Source of the DNA: Eublepharis macularius
Taxonomy: Eukaryota; Chordata; Lepidosauria; Squamata; Eublepharidae
Length of the DNA: 64,000 bases
Direction: 5' to 3'
Assembly (NCBI RefSeq): GCF_028583425.1
Contig: NC_072791.1
Span: 13,721,868 to 13,785,867 of the forward strand
The notes beneath the pieces are model-generated. The model had not been told where the DNA came from. It searched no databases and was given only the letters and a program-made list of their open reading frames with translations. The translations under genes and the position numbers were made by a program. Positions within the stretch are counted from its first letter, which is position 1. The number at the start of each line of letters is the position of its first letter. Shown here one piece after another: positions 3,963 through 58,701 of the stretch.

Positions 3963-4112
3963 TCACCCTACATGAAAACTCAATGATCAAAATTTAATAT
4001 GTGGAATGTCTCCTGTTAATGGGTTTTCTGTTGTTATCAAGAGTTGTTAATGGCCTTTCTCCCTTAATTCTGCTTTTGTTTGAAGGGCTAACGAGTCTCC
4101 TCTTTATTCCAG

Positions 4113-6397
4113 AGGCTGGGAGTCCCAGGAGAAAACCTCAGAGAGAACTCCCATTGGAAGAGGAACAGCAGAGAAGAAGCAATGGGACAAAAGGAAAAAG
4201 AGGGGAGGAATCATTCCATCAACAAAACCATACAGGAGAGAAAAGACATGAACATGAGCACTGGCGGAAGAGTTTTGCTCAGAGTGGAGAACTTACTGTC
4301 CATCGAGGAATTCAAGCAGGGGAGAAACTGTATAAATGCACCGAGTATGGAAAGAGCTTTGTTCGGAATGAAGAATTTACTGTCCATCAACAAATACATG
4401 AAGGGGAAAAACCATATAAATGCGTGGAGTGTGGGAAGAGCTTTGCTGACAGTACATACCTTACTGTCCATCGACGAATTCACACAGGGGAGAAACCATA
4501 CAAATGTGTGGAGTGTGGGAAGAGCTTTGTTCGATGTCAACAGCTTACTGTCCATAAACGAATTCACACAGGGGAGAAACCATATAAATGCATAGAGTGT
4601 GGAAAGAGCTTTGCTCGGAATACACATCTTACTGTCCATCAACGAATCCACACAGGGGAGAAGCCATATAAATGTTTAGAGTGCGGGAAGAGCTTTGTTC
4701 ACAGTCCACATCTTACTGTCCATCGACGAATCCACACAGGGGAGAAACCATATAAATGTGTGGAGTGTGGCAAGGGCTTTGCTGACAGTCCACAGCTTAC
4801 TGTCCATCGACGAATCCACACAGGGGAGAAACCATATACATGCGTGGAGTGTGGGAAGAGCTTTACTCGGTGTCAACAGCTTACTGCCCATCGACGAACC
4901 CACACAGGAGAGAAACCATATAAATGCATGGAGTGTGGGAAGAGCTTTGCACGGAATACACACCTTAAACTCCATCGTAGAATCCACACAGGGGAGAAGC
5001 CATATAAATGTGTGGAGTGTGGGAAGAGCTTTGCTGACAAGTCACATTTTAATGTCCATCGACGAATCCATACAGGGGAGAAACCATATAAATGTATGGA
5101 GTGTGGAAAGACCTTTGCTCAGAAGCTACAGCTTACTGTTCATAACCGAATCCACACAGGTGAGAAACCATATACATGTGTGGAGTGTGGGAAGAGTTTT
5201 ATTCGTAGTCAACAGCTTACTGTCCATCGACGAATCCATATAGGGGAGGAACCATATAAATGCATGGAGTGTGGCAAGACCTTTGTTCAGAATATAGAGC
5301 TTACCATCCATCACCGAATCCACACAGGGGAGAGACCATATAAATGTGAGGAATGTGGGAAGAGCTTTGTTCGGAGTCAACAGCTTACTGTTCATCGACA
5401 AACCCACACAGGGGAGAAACCATACAAATGTATGGACTGTGGGAAGACGTTTGCTCGGAAGTCAAAGCTTATTGTCCATCAACGAATCCACACAGGGGAG
5501 AAGCCGTATAAATGTGTAGAGTGTGGGAAGAGCTTTTCTGACAATTCATATCTTACTGACCATCGACGAACCCACACAGGGGAGAAACCATATAAATGCA
5601 TGGAGTGTGGGAAGAGCTTTTCTCAGAGGGCTCACCGTTCTGTCCATCGACGAATCCACAGAGGAGAGAAACCATATAAATATAGGGAGAGTAGGAAGAC
5701 CTTTGCTAAGAGTACACAACTGAAGGACCATCTACAAATCCAGACAGCGGAGAAACCATATAAATGTGTGGAGTGTGGGAAGACGTTTGCTCAGAGTACA
5801 GCACTTAACGTCCATCAACGAATGCACACAGGGGAGAAACCATATCACTGTGTGGAGTGTGGGAAGAGCTTTGCTCGGAAGCCACATCTTATTGTCCATC
5901 GACGAAGTCACACAGGGGAGAAACCATATAAATGTGTGGAGTGTGGGAAAAGCTTTCCTCAGATAGCCCACCTTATTGTCCATCGCCGAATCCACACAGG
6001 CGAGAGACCATATCACTGTGTGGATTGTGGGAAGAGTTTTCCTCAGATGGCCCACCTTACTTCCCATCGACGAAGCCACACAGGGGAGAAACCATATAAA
6101 TGCATGGAGTGTGGAAAGGCATATGCTTGGAGTACAGAGCTTACTATCCATAAACGTATCCATACAGGGGAGAAACCATATAAATGCATCGAGTGTGGGA
6201 AGAGCTACACTCGGAAAAAACATCTTACTGTCCATCGACGAATCCACACAGGGGAGAAGCCATATAAAAGTGTCAAGAACGGAATACCTTTACTCTCAGT
6301 ACACAGCTTACTGACCATCAATGAATCCACACAGGAGAATCCATATAAATCAGAACCCTACTTGGGTTCTGATGACATCGAAGTCAGCATAGAATAA
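4113..6397 (+). CDS. Gene A: C2H2 zinc-finger protein, terminal exon
   Basis: The reading frame is open from 4001, but a pyrimidine-rich tract and TTCCAG end at 4112, at the same place as the acceptors of genes B and C. The coding exon therefore most likely starts at 4113 in the same phase. After a linker resembling [20 protein letters not shown] there are two decayed fingers, then 15 intact fingers of the form YKCxECGKSF-x9[10 protein letters not shown], one finger that lost both Cys ([10 protein letters not shown]), six more intact fingers and a decayed last unit. That makes 21 intact fingers. Such arrays bind DNA base by base through the -1, 2, 3 and 6 positions of each helix, and these vary here (for example RCQQL, DSPHL, RKPHL). 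No SCAN or KRAB exon is visible upstream in the window; they may lie before base 1 or be lost. The stop TAA lies inside an AATAAA hexamer (6393-6398). Confidence 0.9.
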
Positions 6398-8756: not shown

Positions 8757-9329
8757 AGAAGAAAAAACACAGGCTCTCTATGTCAGCAATACAGCCAATC
8801 TTTTCTTAATTCAACATAATAATAAACAACAGTGCACAATTAGGAAGTGTGAAAAATAAATTGATTACATCATCATCGTTATTGAATCCATTACATCCAT
8901 TATACATAATCATTCATTTAGATTGAGAATATACAAACAACACACAAACTGTGGGCTCCAAGTGATGAAAGGCAGCTCATAAAAGCTACAATTCTCAACT
9001 AATTAGCAACTGTGTGCAAGTCTCTCATAGAGGGTAGTAATTGCAGTTGACTTCCAGCTCTCTCCAAGCCGCAGAAGAGATGAGATAAACGTCCCGTTGG
9101 CCCGACAATCAGTTAGCTTGAAATGATTGTTTCACGTGAGCACAAATGTGCCTCAGCTTTCTCAAGAGCACAGGGCTAAAACAACAAATAAAGTGACAAT
9201 AAATTGTAACTCCTTCTGTTTGTTGCATCTTACAAAATGTTTTAGGAGCTTACTCAAAACAATAAATAAAGTGACATTGAATTGTAACTCCTTCTGTTTG
9301 TTACATCTTATAGAAGCTTTTAAGAGTTT

Positions 9330-10240
9330 GTATTGTCGAAGGCTTTCAGTGCCGGAGAACGATGGTTGTTGTGGGTTTTCCGGGCTGTATTGCCGTGGTC
9401 TTGGCATTGTAGTTCCTGACGTTTTGCCAGCAGCTGTGGCTGGCATCTTCAGAGGTGTAGCACCAAAAGACAGAGATCTCTCAGTGTCACAGTGTGGAAA
9501 AGATGTAGGTCATTTGTATCTACTCAGGAGGGGTGGGGTTGAGCTGAGTCATCCTGTAAGAGTTTCCCAGGGTGTGGAATGCTAATGGCGGGAGGCTTCA
9601 CTGTATCCTGAGGAGGTTCTTTTGCATATGGATTGGTACTTGATGTGCTAATCTTCTCTGCAGGGCTATTGTCGGGGATAGAATGTTTTGTTAGCCTGGT
9701 GTTTTTCAGAACTGGAAACCATGCTCTGTTCATTCTTAAGGTTTCTTCTTTTTGTTGAAGTTTTGCTTATGCTTGTGAATTTCAATGGCTTCCCTGTGCA
9801 GTCTGGCAAAGTAGTTGGAAGTGTTGTCCAGTATTTTGGTGTCCTGGAATAAGATGCTGTGCCCTGTTTGCGTTAGGCTATGTTCAGCCACTGCTGATTT
9901 TTCAGGTTGTCCAAGTCTGCAGTGTCTTTCATGTTCTTTTATTCTTGTCTGGATGCTACGCTTTGTGGTCCCGATGTAAACTTGTCCACAGCTGCAGGGT
10001 ATACGGTATACTCCTGCAGAGGTGAGGGGGTCTCTACTGTCTTTTGCTGATCGTAGCATCTGTTGTATTTTTCGGGTGGGTCTGAATACTGCTTGAAGGC
10101 TATGCTTTTTCATAAGCTTTCCCATCTGATCAGTAATTCCTTTGATATATGGCAAAAACACTTTTCCTGTAGGAGACTGTTTTTCCTTGGTTGTTTGATT
10201 CATCCTGGGTTTGATTGCTCTTCGGATTTCATTTCTGGAG
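9330..10240 (-). mobile_element. PLE lineage 3, 3' fragment nested in PLE lineage 2
   Basis: Target duplications TTTTAAGAGTTT lie at 9318-9329 and 10241-10252. The minus strand encodes a GIY-YIG domain (VYRIPCSCGQVYIGTTKRS and IKEHERHCRLG) at about 9736-10203. It ends in the conserved tail seen at 48.0, 50.7 and 58.5 kb (ATTGTCGAAGGCTTTC at the outer edge). The reverse transcriptase is absent, so only the 3' third was integrated. The tail contains a hammerhead-like motif at about 9414-9455 whose core deviates from consensus. Confidence 0.9.
9414..9455 (-). ncRNA. Hammerhead-like motif in PLE tail, core altered
   Basis: On the minus strand the order is CCU, CUGAAGA, U, GCCAGC, loop, GCUGGC, then the GAAAC-GUC-AGG segment in altered form. 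It is the same element as at 50635-50675, but the segment after helix II no longer matches the GAAA consensus, so activity is unlikely. Confidence 0.5.
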
Positions 10241-11346
10241 TTTTAAGAGTTTATTCACAACTCACACTAGCTTGTAAGAGCTTACTTACAATAAACCAGT
10301 AAAGCCTTCGGTTCAGACATGTTGTATTTGCTCCCTGACGGACATGTTGACCGTGAAATATAGGCATAGACCTGCCTATTGTATACACTCTAATTTAAAG
10401 GGACACATACACAGTTTTTAGAGTGTCAAAGCCATTCAGTTGTTGTTATCCATTAGCTCCACCTACTGACAAAACTCAGAATTGCCCAAATGTAACAAGA
10501 AAGGTCCCAGTGCTGATTTAAACCTCCTGGTGTCAGGGATTTCAAAGTGAAAATCCTCCACATTTCTCGTCTTAATAACATATCCCGGGTATTCTTTCCT
10601 CCCTATCCTGCACTACCTCTAACACTGTAAAACGCACATCTTGCTCAGTGTGTTTTTTTGTTAGAAAATGGGTGGTGGTGGGTGCCTCTTCTATTTTTCT
10701 ACGAATTTTGGATTGATGCTCTTGTATTCTAATTCTGACAGCTCTGTACTGCCCACATATACCAAATTGCAGGGACATTTAATAAGATATATGACTCCTG
10801 GTGTGGTACATGTGGAAAACTTCCTGAATTTGAATTCTCTTCCACCTGCCAACGTGACATTTGATCCAGAGATAACTAAACTGCAAACACTGCTATGTCC
10901 ACAACTATGATGTCCTGTTGGAAACTTCTGTGCACTCTTACCCATTTTCATGTCAGAGTGTACTATTTGATCCTTCAGGCTCTTTGTCCTCCTAAAGCCT
11001 ATGACTGGGGTGTTATTGCATCCAGGTAAATGAGAAATCAAATGCCAATGTTGTTTTATCAGATAGGCAATCTTGGAGGACAGACAAGTGAAATCAATTG
11101 ACCAGTGAATTCTTAAACTTTCTTGTCTTGGTTTCACAACTAATAGATCTTGTCTCTTGATTTTGGATGCTCTAAACTCCGCATTCTGGATAATTTGCCT
11201 TGGATAACCTCTTGATGTAAGTTTATGCACTAGATTGTCACATGTTGAATTAAGAAAAGATTGGCTGTATTGCTGACATAGAGAGCCTGTGTTTTTTCTT
11301 CTGTATTTTGCTTGCTCTCTCTTTAAGAGCCTCTGTTGTAGCCAGT

Positions 11347-27889: not shown

Positions 27890-29575
<1,686 letters not shown>

Positions 29576-29714
29576 CTGGAATAAAGAGGAGACTAGTAAG
29601 TCCTTAAAACAAAAGCAGAATCAAGGAAAAATGGCCATTAATAGCTCTGATAACAACAGAACAAGAAACCATCTGCAGGGGAGATACATCCTACCATTTA
29701 TTGAGTATTGAGTG

Positions 29715-45444: not shown

Positions 45445-47394
<1,950 letters not shown>

Positions 47395-47790: not shown

Positions 47791-47988
47791 CACATTAAAA
47801 ATGTTTTTCCTACAAGAATTGATTCAAATTTTCTTACTTTTAATTAATGTACAAAATTCAAGGCAGAGATGTACTTAGGTAGTGTAAATTGAAACAAAGT
47901 TTTCTGTATAAGAAATGTATAAAAAGTTTTCCAAAACCACATGTATTAAATTATATTTAATAATACTACCAAATTAATAAAGATTATT

Positions 47989-48338
47989 GTCGAAGGCTTT
48001 CACGGCCGGAGAACGATGGTTGTTGTGGGTTTTCCGGGCTGTATTGCCGTGGTCTTGGCATTGTAGTTCCTGACGTTCAGCAGCTGTGGCTGGCATCTTC
48101 AGAGGTGTAGCACCAAAAGACAGAGATCTCTCAGTGTCACAGTGTGGAAAAGATGTAGGTCATTTGTATCTACTCAGGAGGGGTGGGGTTGAGCTGAGTC
48201 ATCCTGTAAGAGTTTCCCAGGGTGTGGAATGCTAATGGCGGGAGGCTTCACTGTATCCTGAGGAGGTTCTTTTGCATATGGATTGGTACTTGATGTGCTA
48301 ATCTTCTCTGCAGGGCTATTGTCGGGGATAGAATGTTA
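47989..48338 (-). mobile_element. PLE lineage 3, 3' end only
   Basis: It starts with the terminal ATTGTCGAAGGCTTTCACGG and ends in GTCGGGGATAGAATGTT, equal to the last ~350 bp of the copy at 48.9-50.7 kb in reverse orientation. Its hammerhead-like motif (about 48068-48105) has lost part of the core. Confidence 0.85.
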
Positions 48339-48690: not shown

Positions 48691-48893
48691 TGAATATAAG
48701 GCAGTGTACAGAAGTTTCCTCCAAGATTAGGCACCACGAAGCCTACATTTTGTTCTCTGTTTTAACCGTTTGAGCAAGCTTTCCTATCTATTCTTGGCTG
48801 TTTCCTCTTCAAAAATCTTTGACTGAAGGTTAGCCAAAGAGTCCTCTCCGGATACACAAGAAAACTGTCCACACTATACAAACTGGTTCATAC

Positions 48894-50303
48894 ATGCAGT
48901 TAGAGCCCTATATAAATCTTAATAGTTTTAGGCTAACTAATGCGCTGATCAAGAATTCCTCACTTCATCCCGACATTCACAGAAAACTATGCAAGACAGA
49001 AGCACAGCCACCACGACTATATGGACTCCCTAAAATTCATAAGGATTCAGTCCCACTCCGACCCATCGTGAGTGCCATTGGTTCACCAACATATGAATTA
49101 GCTAAACATCTGGCCATTCTTCTACAGGACCACATCGGAAAAACCACGTCTTACATCAAAGATTCAGAACATTTCATCAACAAAATCAGTTCTCTGAAAC
49201 TCAATCCACAGGACATACTCGTTGGTTTTGATGTTGTATCCCTATTTACCAAGGTTCTGGTAAAAGACACAATCGTACTTATTAATCAGATTTTTCCAGA
49301 GGATGTAACAGCCTTATTCCACCATTGTCTGACAACCAGTTACTTCCAATGGGATAACGAATTCTATGAACAGATGGATGGGGTGGCCATGGGAAGCCCT
49401 CTCAGCCCACTTATAGCAAACTTCTACATAGAACATTTTGAAAAAACAGCTCTAGAATCAGCATCTCACAAACCTAGTGTCTGGTTCTGGTTTGTGGATG
49501 ATACATTTATCATTCGGAGCCATGGTGAGGAAGAATTGATGGAGTTTTTAAACCACCTCAACAATATCCACCTGAAAATACAATTCACCATGGAGAAAGA
49601 AACAGAGGGTAAACTTCCATTTCTAGATACCTTGGTCATCCGCAAAGCAAACTTTCAATTAGGTCACAAGGTGTACAGGAAACCAACTCACACGGATCGG
49701 TACTTACACAAAAACTCCAATCACCACCCTCGACAGAAAAGAGGCATAATAAAAACAGTAGTAGACCGTGCAAGATGGATATGTGAACCGCACTTTCTCA
49801 ACGAGAAAAGTAATCATCTAAACCACGCACTTCAAGCAAATGGCTACTCCAGAAATGAAATCAGAAGAGCGAGTAAACCAAGGATAAATCAAACAACTAA
49901 GGAAAATAAGTCTCCCACAGGAAAAGTGTTTTTGCCATATATCAAAGGAATCACTGATCAGATGGGAAAGCTTATGAAAAAGTACAGCTTACAAACAGTA
50001 TTCAGACCCACCAGAAAAATACAACAGATGCTACATTCAGCAAAAAACAGTAGAGACCCCATCACATCTGTAGGAGTATACCGTATACCCTGCAGCTGTG
50101 GACAAGTTTACATCGGGACCACAAAGCGTAGCATCCAGACAAGAATAAAAGAACATGAAAGACACTGCAGACTTGGCCATCCTGAAAAATCAGCAGTGGC
50201 TGAACATAGCCTAACTCAAACAGGACACAGTATCCTATTCCAGGACACTAAAATACTGGACAACACTTCCACAGGAAACAACACTGCACAGGGAAGCCAT
50301 TGA
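48894..50303 (+). CDS. PLE reverse transcriptase with GIY-YIG endonuclease, N-terminally short
   Basis: 469 residues. RT motifs in order: PRLYGLPKIHK (about residue 41), LRPIVSAIGSPTYELAK (55), VGFDVVSLFTKV (109), GVAMGSPLSPLIANFYIEHF (164), FVDDTFIIR with the catalytic Asp pair (about 200), and LPFLDTLVIRK (about 243). The GIY-YIG domain follows at about residues 390-440 (GVYRIPCSCGQVYIGTTKRS, then IKEHERHCRLGH). PLEs lack an RNase H and a capsid. Complete members are several hundred residues longer at the N-terminus, so the first part is missing here. The C-terminus diverges from the 9.7-10.2 kb copy after ILDNTS, which suggests a late frame change. Confidence 0.9.
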   Translation: MQLEPYINLNSFRLTNALIKNSSLHPDIHRKLCKTEAQPPRLYGLPKIHKDSVPLRPIVSAIGSPTYELAKHLAILLQDHIGKTTSYIKDSEHFINKISSLKLNPQDILVGFDVVSLFTKVLVKDTIVLINQIFPEDVTALFHHCLTTSYFQWDNEFYEQMDGVAMGSPLSPLIANFYIEHFEKTALESASHKPSVWFWFVDDTFIIRSHGEEELMEFLNHLNNIHLKIQFTMEKETEGKLPFLDTLVIRKANFQLGHKVYRKPTHTDRYLHKNSNHHPRQKRGIIKTVVDRARWICEPHFLNEKSNHLNHALQANGYSRNEIRRASKPRINQTTKENKSPTGKVFLPYIKGITDQMGKLMKKYSLQTVFRPTRKIQQMLHSAKNSRDPITSVGVYRIPCSCGQVYIGTTKRSIQTRIKEHERHCRLGHPEKSAVAEHSLTQTGHSILFQDTKILDNTSTGNNTAQGSH

Positions 50304-50634
50304 AATTCATAAGCTTAAGCACAACTTCAACAGGAAAGAAGAGACTTTAAGAATGAACAGAGCATGGTTTCCAGTCCTGAAAAACACGAGGCTAACAAAA
50401 CACTCTATACCCGACAATAGCCCTGCAGAGAAGATTAGCACATCAAGCACCAATCCATATGCAAAAGAACCTCCTCAGGATACAGTGAAGCCTTCCTCCA
50501 TTAGCATTCCACACCCTGGGAAACTCTTACAGGATGACTCAGCTCAACCCCACCCCTCCTGAGTAGATATAAATGACCTGCCAACATCTTTTCCACACTG
50601 TGACACTGAGAGATCTCTGTCTTTTGGTGCTACA

Positions 50635-50675
50635 CCTCTGAAGATGCCAGCCACAGCTGCTGGCGAAACGTCAGG
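50635..50675 (+). ncRNA. Hammerhead-like ribozyme motif in PLE tail, core preserved
   Basis: CCU (helix I), CUGAAGA (50638-50644), U, helix II GCCAGC/GCUGGC (50646-50651 with 50659-50664), GAA, AC/GU as a two-pair helix III, C as the cleavage-site base, AGG (helix I). Hammerheads are documented in PLE terminal repeats. Unlike the textbook hammerhead, one base separates the CUGANGA core from helix II, so cleavage is not assured. Short helix III is usual in forms that act as dimers. Confidence 0.6.
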
Positions 50676-50995
50676 AACTACAATGCCAAGACCACAGCTA
50701 TACAGCCCGGAAAATCCACAACAACCATCTAAATAGTTGTTATTTAAAATGGCTGCTCTGGAAGGCCCATTAGGAAGGCCCTGTTCACATCCCATAAACT
50801 GTTCCTTTGTTTACAAGCCAATATCTTAGCTTACAGACTAAAGCTTGAGGAGTCCACTAGAGATGCTAAAGTCCTACCATTTGCATCGTGTAGAGCTGCC
50901 CCATTCACCTACTGAGAGTCTCCGCCAGAAAAGCCCATCTTAGAAGGAGCAATTTCTGCCATAAGCCTGTGAATTGAGGGAAAGGGGATCCTTAC

Positions 50996-57286: not shown

Positions 57287-58701
57287 TTTTTTTTAAAAGA
57301 AATTTTTATTAGGTGAGTGTACATATAAGCAAAATCTTCAATTAAAAACCTAAATATCAATTTCCCCCATCCTTTCCCTCCCCCCTTTTCAAGAGACTTC
57401 CAACAGCTTTCCAACCCATATCTTATTCTATAACTTATCTATTCTATCTATATTTTATTATCTCATATTCCATTAGTATACTAAATATCCATTAATATCA
57501 AATCTATTCTAAACATAAACTTAACAATAATTAAAACTTCACTTTAAATGGTAAAGATCCCTATCTCTACTAATCACCCCAGTTAATAACTTTCAAATTG
57601 CCATAATTTCCCCTTCACGTCCCACTTTTTCTCCAAATACTCCTTCAGTTTCTCCCAGTCATTAAAAAATTCTTCAGGATTCTGATCTCTCAGCCTTCTT
57701 GTCAATTTGTCCATTTCCGCCATGTACAGCAACTTTTGTATCCAATCTCCAATAGATGCTATTTCTTGCATTTCTGTGCATATAATATTCTTGCAGCTGT
57801 TGTCATATAAAATAACAATGTTCTATGTTGCTCCGGAACATCTTCCATATTTAAGTTCAGTAGCAGGAGTTCTGGGTTCTTTGTTATTGAAATCTGCAAA
57901 ATCTCATTTATCACTGCTAAAATATCTCTCCAGTACTGCCTAGCAACCTCACAAGTCCACCACATATGAAACAATGATCCTTCGTGACTTTTAGATTTCC
58001 AACACTTATCTGACATCTTAACGTTACCATAAGCTATTTTTTCTGGCGTCAAATACCACCTATATATCATCTTAAAGACATTTTCCTTAATATTGGTACA
58101 AGTTGAAATCTTCAATGTATTTTTCCACAAGTACTCCCATGCCTCCATTGTTATATCTCTTTGACAATTTATAGCCCACTTCACCATCTGGACTTTAACA
58201 GTCTCATCCTCAGTATACCACTTCAAAATAATTTTATAAATCTTTGAAATTTTCTTCTTGCTTTCCTGTAGTATAATTTCTTCCAATTCTGAGTTTTTCC
58301 ATCTAATTACATCTTTTGAACGCTCCGAGTTATACAAATCCTTTATCTGCCTATACTGAAACCATCCATAACAAAAAGCTAATTGATGGTTGTTGGGGGT
58401 TTTCCGGGCTGTATTGCCGTGGTCTTGGCATTGTAGTTCCTGACGTTTCGCCAGCAGCTGTGGCTGGCATCTTCAGAGGTGTAGCACCAAAAGACTTTTG
58501 GTGCTACACCTCTGAAGATGCCAGCCACAGCTGCTGGCGAAACGTCAGGAACTACAATGCCAAGACCACGGCAATACAGCCCGGAAAACCCCCAACAACC
58601 ATCGTTCTCCGGCCGTGAAAGCCTTCGACAATACAAAAAGCTAATTCTTCTTCTGTTTTCATTCTTGTCTTATTCTGTTCCTGAATGAGAATCTTTTTAT
58701 A
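57287..58701 (-). mobile_element. L1 3' end inserted in the ~153-bp repeat
   Basis: GGTACTACCGCAAAAATC (18 bp) occurs at 57269-57286 and 58702-58719, a clear target duplication, and a T-run at 57287 is the A-tail. The minus strand encodes the ORF2 C-terminus (KMIYRWYLTPEKIAYGNVKM, CWKSKSHEGSLFHMWWTC), with the frame open from 58337 to 57759 apart from the PLE insertion upstream. It is 5'-truncated. Confidence 0.9.
58385..58632. mobile_element. PLE lineage 3 tail palindrome inserted in L1
   Basis: 248 bp between 14-bp target duplications ACAAAAAGCTAATT (58371-58384 and 58633-58646). 58385-58493 and 58495-58603 are perfect reverse complements around the single base 58494. The right side continues into the normal PLE end (CGTTCTCCGGCCGTGAAAGC then TTCGACAAT). 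A hammerhead-like motif with preserved core is on each strand, at about 58439-58479 (-) and 58509-58549 (+). Confidence 0.95.

Follow-up and report, generated by a model that had tools for sequence, protein, structure and literature searches.

Inverted leader palindromes of a Penelope-type retrotransposon in Eublepharis macularius carry a tail on one arm, pointing to probable dual priming at two start sites

The palindrome at 58371-58646 of the window (the whole 64,000-nucleotide stretch of Eublepharis macularius DNA analysed here, NC_072791.1, positions 13,721,868 to 13,785,867) is one of thousands left by a Penelope-type retrotransposon (PLE). Its arms consist of the 5' leader and first codons of the element, and in almost every insertion classified one of the two arms is prolonged by a short tail. 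We propose, with high confidence, that each strand of a staggered target cut primes at a different start site on the PLE RNA and that the cDNAs are joined head to head. Elements of this type were known before; what is added here is the near-strict rule of one tail per insertion, together with its mechanistic interpretation. Thousands of natural insertions thereby yield a testable rule, one start site per target strand, which gives a simple account of why PLEs, the third class of eukaryotic retroelements, carry inverted repeats and why their tail is optional, two oddities of long standing, and counts against the published self-priming. The scope of this sequence analysis is one genome and one PLE family with its subfamilies, mostly on contig C1.

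Structure and identity of the palindrome

Direct sequence comparison revealed that 58385-58493 and 58495-58603, the two arms, match base for base in reverse complement (109/109) around a single central A at 58494, and that the insertion is flanked by a 14-bp target-site duplication, ACAAAAAGCTAATT, at 58371-58384 and 58633-58646. The first-pass annotation had reported these arms and this duplication, and both are exact. With the C of CTTTTGG numbered +1, which places the ATG at +24, the left arm on the minus strand is antisense PLE leader and ORF start from +109 to +1, and the portion of the right arm common to both runs from +1 to +109 on the plus strand. The right arm then continues for about 30 bp (58604 to 58632 or 58635) that are absent from the left arm, an asymmetry not mentioned in the first-pass annotation. 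This PLE tail, +110 to +141 (58604-58635, +), would lie between two RT start sites, and the untailed arm probably begins at start site 1 (CAACCATC). The asymmetric element bases before the right duplication read GTTCTCCGGCCGTGAAAGCCTTCGACAAT, followed by an ACA common with the duplication; these three bases (58633-58635) fit the element and the duplication alike and may belong to the latter. The central A would be the joint of two cDNAs. In the native sequence a T precedes CTTTTGG, and therefore one arm may have been copied one base further.

The sense strand of the arm reads CTTTTGGTGCTACACCTCTGAAGATGCCAGCC and contains the ORF start MPATAAGETSGTTMPRPRQYSPENPQQPSFSGRESLRQY, of which the first 39 codons (58518-58635, +) are present before the frame is truncated by the insertion end. 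The arms are 5' leader plus first codons (MPATAAGETSG...), i.e. the PLE pLTR, and have no 3' tail identity. The PLE origin given in the first-pass annotation was correct, while its placement of the arms in the 3' tail has to be replaced. Three further copies in the window enter the same sequence from upstream, at 9329-9700 (-), 47985-48337 (-) and 50386-50729 (+), one of these copies standing behind an open frame of 489 codons at 48834-50300 (+). This frame matches Pfam RVT_1 above the cut-off (E 6.7e-9), a match that identifies an RT in general rather than the telomerase-like type in particular; no solved relative of the RT was found at E 0.001, and no RT is encoded in the palindrome itself. 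A GVY...YIG motif is visible by eye at 9736-10242 (-). Pfam, which returned no family here at E 0.001 and otherwise only T5orf172 (E 0.0043), below the cut-off, does not confirm the GIY-YIG endonuclease domain expected at the C terminus of Penelope/Poseidon elements.

The ATG, which Penelope/Poseidon elements have in stem II of a hammerhead motif, sits here within CTGAAGATGCC, and a hammerhead-like core (CTGAAGA...GAAACGTC) at 58512-58546 (+) of the tailed arm is mirrored in the other arm at 58442-58476. Its cut site, which we take to lie after GAAACGTC, falls inside the arms and at neither outer end, and hammerhead cleavage was rejected as the maker of the ends. The first-pass annotation had described such a core on each strand; a search of the palindrome gave no Rfam hammerhead match at the gathering score or at E up to 10, and the hammerhead reading therefore rests on likeness to an Anolis element, as described in the available parts of PMC11167929. 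The Rfam rows obtained in the palindrome (mir-559 and 16 others) were all below their gathering scores and were judged a mere effect of the perfect hairpin.

Elsewhere in the window, long open frames with an 84-bp period occur at 3998-6397 (+), 28638-29603 (-) and 45445-47394 (-). These are C2H2 zinc finger arrays, with 18-20 matched stretches in the two longest, and represent a zinc-finger gene cluster or its remains.

Genome-wide occurrence and target duplications

The first-pass annotation had made its reading depend on a second example elsewhere in the genome. Searching for exact 12-nt cores on both arms in four classes of gap between the cores yielded head-to-head pairs at approximately 8,248 places: 1062 with gaps of 0-30 nt, 2913 with 31-61, 3432 with 62-92 and 841 with 93-123, with a control count of 0 in each class. 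The figure of 8,248 is the sum of places per class, and some multi-armed elements are counted in two. The exact 33-mer at the centre of the window palindrome occurs 207 times, both strands counted (0 for the reversed-pattern control), and the 35-mer core at 58512-58546 has 28,249 exact copies in the genome. The 16 pairs closer than 1 kb found in the first 100 cores in genome order are without exception head to head.

Target duplications of at least 9 bp, with one mismatch permitted from 11 bp on, were found at 109/114 real loci compared with 1/565 re-paired flanks of different loci, and are not due to chance. Over 127 loci, exact duplications have a median length of 13 bp and are 67% AT, against 58% in the window; AT-rich insertion sites with target duplications are as in the Penelope/Poseidon type.

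The one-tail rule

To classify outer ends, arms reaching at least +130 were called tailed and those ending at or before +118 untailed; the reference ends at +145, and tails given as 145 may be longer. Multi-armed loci were scored by their outermost arms. The search patterns behind all samples are independent of the outer ends. The 140 classified insertions come from five samples. Sample A holds 26 (30 loci from the 207 centre matches minus 4 duplicates), including the window element as L036. Sample B holds 43 of the 50 places listed for gap class 0-30, the other 7 being already in A, and sample C 45 from gap class 31-61 (46 of 50 listed were fetched and one duplicate was dropped). Sample D has 20 of the 50 listed for gap class 62-92, taken near list order; of its omissions, two had already been taken as L138 and L140 and two others were left out, one of which later became L174. 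Sample E comprises 6 of 50 listed for gap class 93-123, hand-picked for simple centres, and is the only sample that does not keep close to list order. Contig C1 holds all of B to E and 22/26 of A. Left out were seven duplicates (L001, L003, L010, L011, L012, L034, L078), the eight best-scoring loci L001-L008, which had been picked by likeness to the query, and L138, L140, L141 and L174, which were met outside the samples. Each of these last four has one tailed arm, the second arm of L141 ending at +86.

One tailed and one untailed arm were found in 138/140 insertions. Their untailed ends all fall within +102 to +116, 126 of them at 106-112, and their tailed ends within +135 to +145, 132 of them at 138-145. 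The two ends lie about 33 nt apart, and this difference is the PLE "tail": a tail of 30-40 bp at one pLTR end, which characterizes Penelope/Poseidon elements, is present in 138/140. The rule holds for every one of the 133 insertions whose target duplication reaches 9 bp or more. A check of all 140 uncovered two pairs with look-alike flanks on both sides, L048/L164 and L051/L079, the centres of which differ. Without L164 and L079 as possible duplicates the counts become 136/138 and 131/131; the joint and haplotype statistics below include both. At three pairs of distant places on C1 the same insertion was seen with alike flanks, namely L009/L034 (about 2.25 and 243.4 Mb), L051/L012 (about 35.9 and 62.4 Mb) and L076/L078 (about 4.66 and 7.04 Mb), indicating segmental duplications or assembly duplicates.

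The two exceptions, L159 with a tail on both arms and L067 with its tailed arm ending at +125, both lack a target duplication and may be rearranged or damaged. L159 (C1:13553960-13554500) is the sole tail/tail palindrome of the 140 and has an extra partial arm at its left edge. L063 (C1:60472800-60473500) has three arms and L163 (C1:14511920-14512460) four; in both, the outermost arms obey the rule and are flanked by 12-bp duplications. In L063, the 7 nt ahead of an inner arm repeat the start of the right target flank in reverse complement, which looks as if a polymerase had copied back out of the target.

Longer insertions have the same ends. The first 100 cores include nine core pairs 2 to 6 kb apart, from which the four head-to-head pairs at 2.1-2.4 kb were taken; 4/4 show a target duplication and a single tail. 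Their arms enclose PLE coding sequence, which shares its strand with the tailed arm in two cases and with the untailed arm in the other two, and thus either cDNA can be the long one. Twelve cores sampled as unpaired comprised 3 palindromic and 9 solo copies (7 after look-alikes were merged), solo status being judged with about 300 bp seen upstream. Taken together with the three window copies, 4/10 solo copies are tailed, and either end is in use. The window copy from 9329 onward (-) shows, by eye, AAACTCTTAAAA on both flanks without an inverted arm. If the two ends of each palindrome were chosen independently at the rates of the solo copies, the probability of 133/133 would be near 10^-40.

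Arm haplotypes and decay

Haplotypes defined by five variable non-CpG sites agree between the two arms in 122/135 elements, compared with a mean of 56.7 and a maximum of 70 after shuffling. The CpG sites 44 and 75 show 0 changes common to both arms and are discordant in 12 and 17 elements, respectively. At CpG site 50, 4 changes are shared (reached in 27/2000 shuffles), and at site 89, 2 (205/2000). The arms mostly start equal and then decay independently. Since the changes at sites 44 and 75 are unshared, widespread arm-to-arm conversion, by which the first-pass annotation had thought the perfect arms might be explained, is not needed.

Site 98 was inspected in 58 elements whose arms are otherwise identical from +16 to +104, giving 36 A/A, 22 C/C and 0 mixed, so the arms nearly always share a source. 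The haplotypes differ in 13/135, often in arms with several mutations. L035 and L151 are discordant at both linked sites 79 and 95, which suggests that two RNAs may be used sometimes; both elements carry further differences and may be old. RNA of one source locus bound in cis would mimic a single RNA. In addition, 22/27 palindromes with C at site 98 (GGAAAACCCCC, including that at 58371-58646) have difference-free arms when only non-diagnostic sites between +16 and +104 are scored; for the A type the figure is 36/106. The C type is a very young subfamily, and the PLE family may still be active.

Central joints

The 104 joints (samples B, C and D less four odd loci) divide into 45 with an overlap, 19 blunt ones and 40 containing inserts. 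Of the 64 insert-free joints, a fraction of 0.59 shows microhomology of at least 2 nt; re-paired joints gave a mean of 0.17 and a maximum of 0.28 in 200 shuffles. Inserts of at least 6 nt are templated in 13/19, being copies of nearby element sequence. The joints look like products of alternative end joining. Among the matches listed, 50 places in each of the four gap classes, the centres are highly diverse, and the centre of the window palindrome occurs in two mirror forms, 16 and 14 of the 30 counted (32 were given and 2 skipped), with both haplotypes. The thinning of inner ends is no more than a hint at a transcription start near -25: the sample is cut off by the gap classes, six values at -54 stem from alignments crossing the centre, and gap class 93-123 has many arms reaching further upstream. 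At the outer ends, target and RNA overlap by at least 1 nt at the two priming sites in 106 and 104 of 127, a count with no null that was hence unused as evidence.

Proposed mechanism and alternatives

The sequence directly displays the anatomy of the insertions with their target duplications, a preference for two outer ends, the rule of one tail and centres that vary, and on these we build the following model of dual priming. A Penelope/Poseidon-type protein would make cuts in both target strands, offset by about 14 bp, and both free 3' ends would prime reverse transcription on PLE RNA: start site 1, at about +108 (ORF nt 85), would serve one strand and start site 2, at about +141 (ORF nt 118), its partner. 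Both cDNAs would extend toward the RNA 5' end and, in the window palindrome, stop at almost the same base. The cDNA ends, each antisense of the same sequence, would then be joined by microhomology or blunt end joining, and gap filling would leave two arms head to head, a single tail and a duplicated target. Given the one-tail rule, the two start sites published for a related element and extension on both target strands, one site per strand is the simplest reading. Twin priming on both target strands was one of two suggestions in the first-pass annotation and is retained as the best explanation. Both priming events probably take place in the same complex, using for the most part a single RNA or several from the same source locus. 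Host end joining probably makes the centre. Because solo copies exist, dual priming is not the only outcome, and the multi-armed L063 and L163, which require extra template switches, speak against it.

We put forward only tentatively, as possible rather than probable, that the pairing is obligatory, with one protein dimer, one RNA and each start site assigned to one target strand. If true, the tail would be the gap between two seats of one machine, and the inverted pLTRs and tails of PLEs would be explained generally. Combined with cDNA end joining, such a process would be unlike both LINE-type target-primed synthesis and LTR integration. The doubtful but serious contrary case is that the two strands prime on separate, freely chosen RNAs and that the one-tail rule is otherwise caused, e.g. 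by a fixed order of strand cuts. The 13/135 elements with differing arm haplotypes agree with it, the differences in L035, L151 and perhaps L080 falling on known subfamily variants, whereas the lack of any mixed site 98 in 58 otherwise identical-arm elements argues against free choice.

Three explanations dispense with dual priming. The other suggestion of the first-pass annotation, snap-back self-priming, in which a strand folds at the end matching the RNA 5' end and is copied again (in PMC3846280, on an antisense template), would account for the head-to-head order and the palindromic joints; some centres (GGTGTAGCACC, AGAGATCTCT) could fold back, and the inner arm of L063 with its 7 matching nt looks like such copying. 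Snap-back predicts equal arms, however, and leaves unexplained the surplus of about 33 nt and the two preferred sites seen in 138/140; the linked discordance of L035 and L151, possibly old, further suggests different templates for the two arms. We regard it as very unlikely. Slighter still is the chance that a master palindrome is transcribed and retrotransposes as a unit like a fold-back retroposon. Such a master would fit the agreeing arm haplotypes and the 207 copies with the exact centre of the window element. It would also give few shared centres, and those listed are diverse; even the common centre exists in two mirror forms, each count including both haplotypes, and the ORF-containing insertions have the same ends. 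That the palindromes arose from a pair of unrelated insertion events, from recombination between two copies or from chimeric assembly has a negligible probability: L159, with two tails and no duplication, may be such a product, yet 133/140 have a single outer duplication against 1/565 re-paired flanks, the outer ends are two preferred ones and the examples number in thousands. The single outer duplication likewise bears out the single insertion event claimed in the first-pass annotation. Dual priming accordingly remains our preferred reading.

Comparison with known systems

In LINE-1 twin priming, an inverted 5' part arises when priming on the RNA also occurs from the second target strand; the position of this second priming event is variable, and overlap between the two parts is slight. 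Unlike in LINE-1, both sites are nearly fixed here, about 33 nt apart, and the arms are near-complete mutual copies. Animal retrozymes consist of tandem units yielding circular RNA. The units described here are inverted, and their outer ends lie away from the presumed ribozyme cut site, which sets them apart from those small non-autonomous retroposons with type I hammerheads, as the available parts of PMC7229834 present them.

The closest biochemical parallel is the Anolis carolinensis PLE, PAc. According to the accessible text of PMC11167929 (2024), two adjacent internal RT start sites were mapped in vitro, the tail was stated to be the sequence between them, and both target strands were cut and extended by a protein predicted to act as a dimer. 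As in PAc (PMC11167929), the targets are AT-rich; the ORF would likewise start inside a hammerhead-like stem, both target strands would be extended, and the tail would be set by two priming sites that lie slightly beyond 110 nt of the ORF with 30-40 nt between them. The end point at ORF nt 118 agrees with PAc by distance and layout, the sequences being unaligned. PAc has its AC-rich priming loop at ORF nt 111-118, whereas here it is the end point around nt 85 that has the AC-rich stretch (CCCACAACAACCATC or CCCCCAACAACCATC). Since top and bottom strands were reported without difference in start site, a strict one-of-each rule is not predicted by that work by itself. The same text treats tandem copies and leaves start sites unpaired with strands; inverted palindromes are not discussed in its available portion, where the sole use of 'inverted' concerns a blocked oligo end, and it closes with steps "yet to be validated experimentally".

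Inverted pLTRs with an optional tail (PMC3846280) and a tail between two start sites (PMC11167929) are already published, as far as the available parts of these papers go. No paper joining inverted pLTRs to the two start sites was found in a search that had most subscription papers and all preprints outside its range. In Adineta vaga, the accessible part of PMC3846280 describes Penelope elements with head-to-head inverted pLTRs and junction palindromes, target duplications of 8-10 bp in several cases and a 31-bp tail at one inverted pLTR, termed optional, the inversion being ascribed to self-priming on an antisense template. Compared with these few copies and their optional tail, the palindromes described here number in thousands and carry one tail in 138/140, and dual priming fits them better.
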